Source: Candidatus Parcubacteria bacterium
Lineage (GTDB): Bacteria > Patescibacteriota > Minisyncoccia > Phycocordibacterales > Phycocordibacteraceae
DNA: 36,514 nucleotides
Reading direction: 5' to 3'
Assembly (NCBI GenBank): GCA_021731495.1
Contig: JAKFXG010000023.1
Location: 1-36,514, forward strand
Made by a program: the position numbers and the translations under genes. Under the pieces are notes generated by a model. That model was not told the DNA's origin, did not search any database, and saw only the letters and a list, made by a program, of their open reading frames with translations. Positions 2,574-28,587 of the stretch are shown in pieces; position 1 is the first letter of the stretch; every line of letters begins with the position of its first letter.

Positions 2574-3002
2574 ATGTTCATCGGCGAATACCTGCACACT
2601 CTCGATCCCAAGAATCGAATTTCACTTCCAGCAAAGTTTCGGAAGGATCTCGGCCGCTCTGTCGTCATGACGCGCGGCCTTGATCATTGCCTCTTCGTGT
2701 ATCCGAAGAAGGCATGGGCAAAGGAAGCCGAGAGCCGTGCAGTACATGCTGGAGGAACAGCCGCAGCTCGCGGGCTTGCACGTCTTTTTCTTTCGGGGGC
2801 AATGGAGGCAGATGTTGATGCCGCCGGACGGGTGCTCGTACCGGATCATCTAAAGAGCTTCGCTGGTCTTGGAAGCAAGACCGTCATTGCGGGTGTCGCG
2901 AACCGTATTGAAATATGGGATGCAGACGCGTGGAAGAAGTACACGGCCGACATCGAGCGCGATGCCGACGCTTTCGCTGAAAAGATAGGCGACAACAATT
3001 GA
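2574..3002 (+). CDS. mraZ: Transcriptional regulator MraZ
   Basis: MFIGEYLHTLDPKNRISLPAKFR is the MraZ N-terminus. ORF-track start 2520 lies inside the operator repeats; ATG 2574 preferred. Confidence 0.95.
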   Translation: MFIGEYLHTLDPKNRISLPAKFRKDLGRSVVMTRGLDHCLFVYPKKAWAKEAESRAVHAGGTAAARGLARLFLSGAMEADVDAAGRVLVPDHLKSFAGLGSKTVIAGVANRIEIWDADAWKKYTADIERDADAFAEKIGDNN

Positions 3003-10065: not shown

Positions 10066-11115
10066 ATGGATTTGTTCACCGTCGCCCTCATTGTACTCGC
10101 ACTCATCCTCGTACAGGGCGTTGGTCTCTATCTTATATTTCGCCGCCGCGAGACCCCGACTGAAGAGGGCAGTGGCATGGTACTTCTCCAACAGCAGATG
10201 CAGGAGCTTGCGCGCACACTCGACGCGCGTGTCTCGGAATCATCCCGTGCAATGCAGGAGAATTCGCACCGCCAATTTTCCGAAAGCGCGCGCCTCATAA
10301 AAGAAATCACCCAGGAAGTGACGTCGGTGAAGGAGATCGGCCGTCAGACGCAGGGCTTTGCCGAACAACTTCAGAACTTGCAGGACATCCTTAAGAATCC
10401 GAAGCAGCGCGGCATCCTCGGCGAGTATTACCTCGAAACCGTTTTGAAAAACGTGCTTCCGCCTGGTATGTATCAGATGCAGTATCCATTTAAAAATGGT
10501 GAAATAGTGGACGCGGCAGTATTTGTGAGCGACAAGATCGTCCCCATCGACTCGAAGTTTTCGCTCGATAACTACAACCGTCTTGTGCATGCGCCGGACG
10601 CGGAGCGTCCGGCGTTTGAAAAGGCTTTTGTAAATGACCTCAAGATGCGTATCACTGAGACGGCAAAATACATCCGCCCCGATGAGAACACGATGGATTT
10701 TGCTTTCATGTTCATCCCCTCCGAAGGTATTTATTATGATCTCCTCACGAATCAGGTCGGAGGGGGAGAGGATGAGAATCTCATTCAAAGGGCGGCAGGG
10801 AAGCATAAAGTCATTATCGTCTCCCCGACGTCATTCCTCGCCTACCTTCAGACCGTGATGCAAGGGCTCAAGGCACTCCAGATAGAGAAAAAGGCCGTGG
10901 AGATCCAACAGCGAGTAGGGGAGCTCGGGAAGCATGTGGCGGCCTATGAAGAGTTCTACCGCAAGCTTGGTATCTCGCTTGGAACCTCGGTGAGCCACTA
11001 TAACGCAGGTTACAAAGAGCTTGGCAAAATTGATAAGGACGTTTATCGCATAACAGGTGAGAGAATGGATATTGAACAACCCGAACTCCTCGAAAGACCA
11101 GGAATCGGGGAATAA
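10066..11115 (+). CDS. rmuC: DNA recombination protein RmuC family
   Basis: N-terminal TM, coiled coil, then KQRGILGEYYLETVLKNVLPPGMYQMQYPFKNGEIVDAAVFVSDKIVPIDSKFSLDNY. ATG 10066 preferred over ORF-track 9856. Confidence 0.9.
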   Translation: MDLFTVALIVLALILVQGVGLYLIFRRRETPTEEGSGMVLLQQQMQELARTLDARVSESSRAMQENSHRQFSESARLIKEITQEVTSVKEIGRQTQGFAEQLQNLQDILKNPKQRGILGEYYLETVLKNVLPPGMYQMQYPFKNGEIVDAAVFVSDKIVPIDSKFSLDNYNRLVHAPDAERPAFEKAFVNDLKMRITETAKYIRPDENTMDFAFMFIPSEGIYYDLLTNQVGGGEDENLIQRAAGKHKVIIVSPTSFLAYLQTVMQGLKALQIEKKAVEIQQRVGELGKHVAAYEEFYRKLGISLGTSVSHYNAGYKELGKIDKDVYRITGERMDIEQPELLERPGIGE

Positions 11116-11121
11116 AGTAGT

Positions 11122-11150
11122 TGCATTTTGCGATTCGATGTGCTACACTA
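11122..11150 (+). promoter_or_regulatory. Sigma70-type promoter for the 11.2-kb ncRNA candidate
   Basis: TTGCAT - 17 nt - TACACT with extended -10 (TGC). Confidence 0.65.
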
Positions 11151-11156
11151 TATGTA

Positions 11157-11385
11157 GTTTTTTGAAAGTTTGGGGTCCGACTGAGCGAAGGCAGCCTAGA
11201 TTCGTAGCTGACTAAACCCGTACTAATTCGGGAAAATAAATTAGTAGTCACGCTCGGTATGATTTCTCGCCCAAAGATCGCGCATCGTTTTTGATGAGAA
11301 CCAATTGATTACGATGGATTCCGTGACGCAATAAGCGACTGCTCAGCCGTCACCGTTGATTCAGTTTGGCCCCAAACTTTTCGGA
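11157..11385 (+). ncRNA. Candidate structured RNA upstream of rplU
   Basis: AAAGTTTGGGG (11165-11175) pairs perfectly with CCCCAAACTTT (11370-11380); internal CTGAGC/GCTCAG, possible H-type pseudoknot at 11217-11246; own promoter; no plausible ORF. Confidence 0.65.
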
Positions 11386-11388
11386 AGC

Positions 11389-11417
11389 TTGTCTTTTATA
11401 CAGAAGAGTGCTAGATT
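11389..11417 (+). promoter_or_regulatory. rplU promoter, near-leaderless
   Basis: TTGTCT - 17 nt - TAGATT (extended TGC), 9 nt before ATG 11427. Confidence 0.6.
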
Positions 11418-11426
11418 GGGGAAACT

Positions 11427-11744
11427 ATGGAAGTGGCCGTAATCAAGACCGGTGGGAAGCAATACGTCGTCTCTAAAGGCGACACTATCGCTATAGAGAA
11501 GCTCCCAGGGGATTTGAAAAAGGGTGACACAGTTGTCTTTGGCGAGGTGCTCCTCGTGGACAACGGCTCGGACACGACCATCGGCGCACCTGTCATTAAG
11601 GGTGCGGAGGTCAAGGGCACTGTTGTTCTCGCCGGATTGGATAAGAAAATTGAAGTGGTGAAGTACAAGCCGAAGAGCCGCTACTACAAGCGCGTCGGGC
11701 ATCGTCAGCCACTTCTTAAGGTTAAAATCGACTCGATTTCTTAA
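11427..11744 (+). CDS. rplU: 50S ribosomal protein L21
   Basis: MEVAVIKTGGKQYVVSKGDTIAIEKLPGD...KYKPKSRYYKRVGHRQPLLKVKI. Confidence 0.97.
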   Translation: MEVAVIKTGGKQYVVSKGDTIAIEKLPGDLKKGDTVVFGEVLLVDNGSDTTIGAPVIKGAEVKGTVVLAGLDKKIEVVKYKPKSRYYKRVGHRQPLLKVKIDSIS

Positions 11745-22735: not shown

Positions 22736-23017
22736 ATATCAGGAGTTCAATCAAAATTATCGATCCGAAGAAGGGAAGTAGCAGGGGAGTAGATACTCAA
22801 AAGTAACCACTCCCCCATGGTGTAGAAAAATCAGCCAAGGGAACTAGGTGAAGTATGTGCGTTAGTTTTTTGATATTTGAGTACGAGTAAAGTTTTGCTC
22901 GGCAAAATTTATCTAGATTCTTTTTTGGGGCAATACGATGGGGAATAAAGTTCTTCAAATTTTTTATCGGGCCTTCCACCCTCGGGGGGGACTCCTTATT
23001 AGAAGTACGCACATTAT

Positions 23018-23100
23018 ATCTTTTGCGAACAAGGCCCTGCCTTGGTCCGCAAAAGATTCGAAAGGTTGTGCCGCGTTAATTGCACACGCACAACCTTTCG
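23018..23100. repeat. Two tandem long hairpins
   Basis: ATCTTTTGCG-aa-CAAGGC cct GCCTTG-gtc-CGCAAAAGAT; CGAAAGGTTGTG / CACAACCTTTCG (12 bp). Confidence 0.85.
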
Positions 23101-23140
23101 TTCCACCCACGTTCTTATCCTAGAGGCTACTCATTATTAT

Positions 23141-23365
23141 TTATGTTGTGGGACGGATCCAGTACGTAGCCCATAACCAGGCTTGGATGAAGTATTGGTA
23201 AGCGTATTGCCAGCCCTGAACGAGAAGGTGGTAGAGATAACTAAAATTTTCTTGGCCGGTCGGGGAGTTGATGATGGCCTGGACTGAAATACCAAAAAAG
23301 GACAGTGCGAGGAGGAGCACGAACACCCAGAAGATGAGCCGAACCATAGTGGGCATATTATACAA
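23141..23365 (-). CDS. Small membrane protein
   Basis: MVRLIFWVFVLLLALSFFGISVQAIINSPTGQENFSYLYHLL; hydrophobic helix. Start uncertain. Confidence 0.55.
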   Translation of the reverse strand: MYNMPTMVRLIFWVFVLLLALSFFGISVQAIINSPTGQENFSYLYHLLVQGWQYAYQYFIQAWLWATYWIRPTT

Positions 23366-27373: not shown

Positions 27374-28471
27374 TTACGTCACACGGCGGGCGGCGACGTT
27401 AAGGATAAAACCGCACATGATGAGGGTGGCCATAAGCGCAGTGCCTCCGTGGGAGATAAATGGCAGGGGCAGGCCGGTAAGCGGGATGATGCCCAGCATC
27501 GCACTTATGTTGATGAATGTCTGCAAAATAATGATGAAGGAGAATCCGAGAGCAACGAGCCCGCCGAAGAGGTCGCGCGAGTTCCCTGCTATCACAATGC
27601 CGCGCGCCGCAAAGGCGACAAACAGCGCGAGAAGGATGGCGGCCCCGATAAATCCGGTTTCTTCAGCGAAGACCGCAAAGATGGAATCGCCGGCAGGTTC
27701 CGGCAAATAATTGAACTTTTCGACGCTTTGACCAAACCCTCTCCCTGCGAGTTCTCCGGAACCAATAGCGATCAAGGACTGCTGGATCTGATATCCACTG
27801 CTCAGAGAATTCTCCGAGGGGTTTATGAACGTCTTCACACGTTCAAGTACATAGGGCCGTGCAGCAATAACGATGGCAAACGCGAGGATGGCGCCGAGCG
27901 CGAGGATGCCGAAATCACGCCAGGGAGCTCCCGCAACGAAATACATCACAGTGCCCGTGACAAACATAAGAAATGCCGTGGAGGTGTTCGGTTGAGCAAG
28001 CAGGATGGCCGCAGGGATTATGAGGAAGATAAGGAAAGGAAACAGTCCTTTTTTCGTGCTTGCCAGTTCCCGGGCGCGCGGCGCGAGCCACCACGCGAGC
28101 GCCAGTACGAAACCGATCTTCAGGAATTCCGCCGGCTGTACGGTTGTGAATCCGATATCGATCCAGCGGGTCGCGCCGCCGGAGTGGAATCCGATTCCCG
28201 GCACGAAGACAAGTAGGGTGAAAAGGATGGTTAGAGCGTACAGAAATGGCGCGAAACGCTTTATCTGCGCAAGAGGGATGGTCCGCGCAACGAGAAGGGC
28301 CAGAAATCCGAGCCCGAGCCCGAGCCCCGCTTGAAGCAGAATGTCCTGCGATACCGAGCTGTTTTCCCGTGCAAGGAGTCCCAGCACCGCCGAAGAAAAG
28401 ATGGCGAGGCCAGCGAGAGCCAGCGAGATCACCAGCATAAAGAACATACGATCTCCCGAAACGAATTTCAT
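27374..28471 (-). CDS. ftsW: Lipid II polymerase/flippase-family FtsW
   Basis: SGYQIQQSLIAIGSGELAGRGFGQSVEKFNYLPEPAGDSIFAVFAEETG; LPLPFISHGGTAL. Start MKFVSGDRMFF. Confidence 0.95.
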   Translation of the reverse strand: MKFVSGDRMFFMLVISLALAGLAIFSSAVLGLLARENSSVSQDILLQAGLGLGLGFLALLVARTIPLAQIKRFAPFLYALTILFTLLVFVPGIGFHSGGATRWIDIGFTTVQPAEFLKIGFVLALAWWLAPRARELASTKKGLFPFLIFLIIPAAILLAQPNTSTAFLMFVTGTVMYFVAGAPWRDFGILALGAILAFAIVIAARPYVLERVKTFINPSENSLSSGYQIQQSLIAIGSGELAGRGFGQSVEKFNYLPEPAGDSIFAVFAEETGFIGAAILLALFVAFAARGIVIAGNSRDLFGGLVALGFSFIIILQTFINISAMLGIIPLTGLPLPFISHGGTALMATLIMCGFILNVAARRVT

Positions 28472-28587
28472 CCCGTTAGAAATAGTCCCGTTAGAGACCA
28501 CTTTGATTACGGCTACTAATATCGACCACTATATCGCTTTCTCGCGGAAAAGTCTCTAACGGGATGCGATTTCTAACGGGATTCATG
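28468..28587 (-). repeat. Nested inverted-repeat leader element E6 immediately upstream of ftsW
   Basis: Outer arms 28470-28483/28569-28582 (14 bp), inner arms 28487-28498/28552-28563 (12 bp); same termini as the rplI element. Confidence 0.9.

Follow-up and report, generated by a model that had tools for sequence, protein, structure and literature searches.

A probable species-specific gene for a structured non-coding RNA between rmuC and rplU in a Kaiserbacteria-like member of the Patescibacteria

Introduction

Does the non-coding stretch in front of a ribosomal protein gene encode an RNA of its own, or is it a leader of that gene, the remnant of a mobile element, or sequence without function? 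The question arises for the gap between rmuC and rplU in the DNA analysed here (the window, 36,514 nt), which forms contig C9 in a genome of 0.67 Mb. The closest relatives of its rplU come from MAGs, many of them labelled Candidatus Kaiserbacteria, Nomurabacteria or Parcubacteria, and the source of the window is a Kaiserbacteria-like member of the Patescibacteria. In the window, the gap measures 311 nt and is non-coding, with no reading frame longer than 27 aa. A structured segment of 232 nt, at 11157-11388, lies within it, and both of its ends pair with each other. A first-pass annotation had described an independently transcribed structured RNA at this place, and all the sequence strings that it quoted are found in the window where it placed them. 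The reading favoured here is that the segment is probably a species-specific gene for a structured non-coding RNA of ~232-241 nt, located in a site between rmuC and rplU that holds different cargo in different relatives. The setting is the following:

10066-11115, plus strand: rmuC, the left neighbour (Pfam PF02646, E 1e-51)
11157-11397, plus strand: predicted RNA transcript, with a start at about 11155-11158 and an end in the TTGTCTTTT tract, as placed by its distance from the -10 box and by the flush fit of the closing helix
11427-11744, plus strand: rplU (L21), the right neighbour, nearly leaderless (Pfam PF00829, E 8e-32)

The promoter of the RNA

The segment is preceded by a candidate promoter of its own, in agreement with the first-pass annotation. 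As a sequence match, it consists of TTGCAT (11121-11126) and TACACT (11144-11149), separated by a 17-nt spacer with an extended TGC.

11121-11149, plus strand: RNA promoter, TTGCATTTTGCGATTCGATGTGCTACACT, score 14.2 on a matrix from the rplU promoters of relatives

This matrix, with the consensus TTGTCTTTTAT..A.AAGAATGCTA.ATT, was trained only on 49 distinct rplU promoters of relatives and applied to both strands of the window. Within the 36.5 kb its highest score goes to the rplU promoter (39.8), followed by a site in front of rpmA (L27; 21251-21523, minus strand) at 15.4 and, in third place, by the RNA promoter, the last two being outside the training set. Sites scoring as well as the RNA promoter on the rplU-trained matrix were absent from 20 shuffles. 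Judged by sequence, the RNA promoter thus appears to be of the same kind as the rplU promoter of the genus and the rpmA promoter of the window. A generic sigma-70 scan reports nothing at the RNA promoter and misses rplU's own promoter too; the promoters of this genus deviate from the generic sigma-70 consensus. RNA polymerase would be expected to start at about 11157 from this strong promoter of the ribosomal-protein type.

The closing helix and the 3' end

The two ends of the segment form a long helix, in which 26 of 28 positions are paired (20 Watson-Crick and 6 G-U pairs), three of the outermost six pairs being G-U:

11157-11184, plus strand: 5' arm of the closing helix, G11157 to A11184
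11361-11388, plus strand: 3' arm, T11361 to C11388, flush against the U-tract and in the same position as the terminator hairpins of relatives

The closing pair of strings that had been noticed initially, AAAGTTTGGGG (11165-11175) and CCCCAAACTTT (11370-11380), is present on both sides; the length of 11 bp given for it was too short, as the helix exceeds it. Among ungapped helices with a span of 120-260 on the plus strand of the window, the closing helix ranks at the top (score 50, versus 36 for the next), and when the whole window is shuffled 200 times with its dinucleotides kept, a score of at least 50 occurs anywhere in 2 of the shuffles. The helix extends from the predicted start site to TTGTCTTTT, against which it lies flush.

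Immediately beyond this helix lies the promoter of rplU, TTGTCT-17-TAGATT, which had been described as separate and is indeed distinct from the RNA promoter:

11389-11417, plus strand: rplU promoter, conserved in relatives; TTGTCTTTT would double as the U-tract after the RNA

The rplU promoter is kept across relatives, and the message that starts from it has almost no leader. Where relatives carry cargo, there is usually a strong hairpin whose end lies no more than a few bases from TTGTCTTTT, the rplU -35 region, and a terminator hairpin abutting TTGTCTTTT, with an energy of ~-14 kcal/mol or lower, is present at 24 of 50 relatives' loci. The same tract is both rplU -35 region and terminator U-tract of the upstream gene in about half of the relatives (window 11389-11426; L052-L129). 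The window lacks a strong local hairpin at TTGTCTTTT, and a generic scan for terminators reports nothing there. With its 3' arm, the closing helix reaches exactly to TTGTCTTTT, which suggests that it takes the place of the usual terminator; a terminator with a loop as large as this one is unusual. Transcription would then stop in the TTGTCTTTT tract, which is also the rplU -35 region, while rplU keeps its own start.

The location of the segment directly upstream of rplU, and the overlap of its predicted 3' end with the rplU -35 region, are also consistent with a cis-acting element, either a leader or an attenuator, through which rplU would be controlled by read-through or by transcription into its promoter. 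Such a role is distinctly improbable, however, given that rplU has a conserved promoter of its own and an almost leaderless message. Moreover, the rplU genes of relatives lack the segment, being preceded by a gap of 39-43 nt or by unrelated cargo instead, indicating that rplU does not need it.

The inner fold

Enclosed by the closing helix, an arm capped by a pseudoknot and two hairpins are predicted:

11204-11255, plus strand: pseudoknot-capped arm with a 10-pair helix and one unpaired base per side (pairing probabilities mostly 0.8-0.97)
11217-11244, plus strand: H-type pseudoknot CCCG-UA-CUAAUU-CGGG-AAAAUA-AAUUAG, from a pattern search, with a flush outer helix
11283-11316, plus strand: hairpin CAUCGU/ACGAUG with an inner 5-bp stem (pairing probability ~0.95)
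11323-11353, plus strand: hairpin GUGACG/CGUCAC (pairing probability 0.78-0.96)

The H-type pseudoknot, recognised at the outset, is present with stems CCCG/CGGG and CUAAUU/AAUUAG and loops of 2, 0 and 6 nt, which are good lengths for such a structure. Pseudoknots of the same kind arise by chance ~1.6 times per 36-kb strand in shuffles, with ~0.01 expected in 232 nt, and none among the sites from 12 shuffles has a flush outer helix of at least 5 bp, as is found in the segment. Two other pairings that the first-pass annotation had listed do not appear in the predicted fold, where CTGAGC/GCTCAG is out-competed by GACTGA/TCAGTT, and GTCACG/CGTGAC loses to AGCTGACTA/TAGTCA-GCT (the pseudoknot arm) and to GTGACG/CGTCAC. 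The folding energy of the segment (z ~ -3.3 to -3.5, rank 17 of 662 window segments) is by itself only moderately unusual.

Two other places in the window fold strongly. A long inverted repeat of repeated CCCGTTAGA units (TCCCGTTAGAAATAGTCCCGTTAGAGAC ... GTCTCTAACGGGATGCGATTTCTAACGGGA) at 28469-28584 has a folding z of ~ -5.9, and two strong tandem hairpins at 22991-23222 have the lowest folding z of the window (~ -10, minus strand).

The promoter of its own, the closing helix that runs from the start site to TTGTCTTTT and the inner structure together argue that the segment yields an independent transcript and not an rplU leader, a claim of the first-pass annotation that the promoter score and the closing helix make likely. 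This transcript would fold into a closed form, with its 5' and 3' ends paired and the pseudoknot-capped arm and two hairpins inside. Ends sealed in this manner may protect the RNA from decay. On the basis of this anatomy, the RNA would most likely act in trans, with a protein or other RNAs as its binding partners.

Comparison with known RNA families

The first-pass annotation could not match the segment by eye to a known family, and this is borne out by a search of 4227 Rfam models over 10900-11700, which returns no match up to E 10; at the gathering score, likewise, nothing is reported on the segment, 6S RNA and riboswitch families included. Like tmRNA (RF00023), the segment has closed ends, with a 5' arm that includes GGGG, and a pseudoknot directly ahead of UAGUC, but it differs from tmRNA in the lack of a model match up to E 10 and of a tRNA-like domain. 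ARAGORN finds only a tRNA-Glu in the window, and the segment is without a tRNA-like end. RNase P RNA (RF00010) is also multi-branched with paired ends, but the segment is too short for it and does not match the model. That the segment is neither of these RNAs is consistent with the presence of the true genes on another contig (tmRNA at C3:23272-23679, RNase P RNA at C3:40129-40479).

Bacterial SRP RNA (RF00169, RF01854) resembles the segment in its long terminal helix, but the segment has no match to either model and is missing from congeners. This absence from congeners argues against SRP RNA or any other housekeeping role. Neither RF00169 nor RF01854 detects an SRP RNA in this genome, so the SRP RNA role has no visible occupant at another locus. 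The same models have no match in any of 12 genomes (small type) or 39 genomes (large type), comprising this genome and relatives, and the SRP RNA of these bacteria may have diverged strongly.

Lineage-specific bacterial small RNAs offer a closer parallel in that they have their own promoter, are short and non-coding, and are limited to one lineage. The segment differs from them in its size, which exceeds that of most, and in its sealed ends.

Homologues and the origin of the segment

Homology of 11150-11400 in related genomes, a line of support that the first-pass annotation had pointed to, is detected neither by BLAST in the genus and phylum nor by covariance models in the genus and order. 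With BLAST, the segment matches only itself among 99 relatives; in 93 genomes of the genus (92 congeners and its own) it matches itself, the other matches at E<=1 being short and scattered, and among 380 genomes of the phylum it has no homologue. Five weak phylum matches (E 0.002-0.01), most of which appear to be within protein genes and one beside a tRNA, were taken as chance. With a covariance model that covers the entire segment, only the segment itself is recovered from 93 genus and 397 order genomes; a match in L055 (E 2.5e-4) falls on a perfect hairpin that is unrelated to it. In the genus, a model of the pseudoknot arm recovers the window itself and one match at chance level (E 0.98). 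These models were built from the single sequence of the window, and a strongly diverged relative could therefore have been missed. BLAST of phage and plasmid collections yields nothing resembling the segment. In viral contigs, the exact pseudoknot pattern has no match, and six single matches to the exact 20-nt end pattern, one per contig, were taken as chance.

These results bear on the idea that the segment is what is left of a small, MITE-like inverted-repeat mobile element, with the RNA structure as a by-product. Its 20-nt ends, AAAGTTTGGGGTCCGACTGA and TCAGTTTGGCCCCAAACTTT, can be viewed as terminal inverted repeats, being identical as DNA at 17 of 20 positions; the size, 216 bp, is in keeping with such elements, and the locus is an insertion-prone gap. 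The end sequence, even with up to 3 mismatches allowed, occurs nowhere else in the genome, which weakens this origin; the element is single-copy, lacks matches in relatives and in phage or plasmid records, and shows no visible target duplication in the sequence of the locus. In addition, 6 of the 8 differences from an inverted repeat across the 28-nt ends still form G-U pairs in the RNA. A MITE-like remnant is, consequently, unlikely, and an RNA gene remains the preferred explanation.

The gap between rmuC and rplU is 39-43 nt long in several close relatives and reaches >2.8 kb in others, where it contains assorted small reading frames that are mostly unrelated to one another. Because both its size and its content vary among relatives, the gap appears to be a site where cargo comes and goes, with the RNA as the cargo of its own species. 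Variable gaps are seen in L054, L055, L058-L066, L068, L070, L071, L077, L087 and others. A cargo family of ~110 aa is present in L055, L064, L068 and L077, the L064 member being without a Pfam match. In L061, the 217 nt in front of rplU at 3001 contain strong hairpins and no long reading frame; this gap has no detected similarity to the RNA of the window and no Rfam match.

Since small protein genes are the usual content of this gap in relatives, the segment could be decayed cargo, a former small gene, or a chance fold of random non-coding sequence, in either case without function. The modest folding z-score and the lack of homologues are compatible with this explanation. It is nevertheless quite unlikely, as the strong promoter is intact, the best long-range helix of the window sits between the start site and the U-tract, and a six-frame translation of the segment gives no convincing match to the cargo at relatives' loci. 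Apart from the rplU promoter, the lowest E in the six-frame comparison (0.009) belongs to a place 400 nt downstream of rplU, which is not cargo.

Implications

A broader proposal is that the RNA gene is the first representative of an undescribed class of Patescibacteria RNAs with sealed ends and a pseudoknot, which function in trans and move between species as cargo. This is doubtful, and support for a new RNA class does not go further than the single example. No relevant paper on non-coding RNA in Patescibacteria was found among the open-access literature. Discovery pipelines for structured RNAs in bacteria depend on comparative sequence analysis (PMC6429828, PMC8632094, PMC8040213). Such pipelines would probably have difficulty in detecting an RNA confined to one species.

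If the RNA gene is real, a genome of ~0.67 Mb has room for an independent gene for a structured RNA, which would mean that lineage-specific RNA genes are carried despite strong genome reduction. The hosts, as Patescibacteria, are streamlined and mostly uncultivated bacteria, and the cargo site between rmuC and rplU would provide a defined place to look for further RNA genes.
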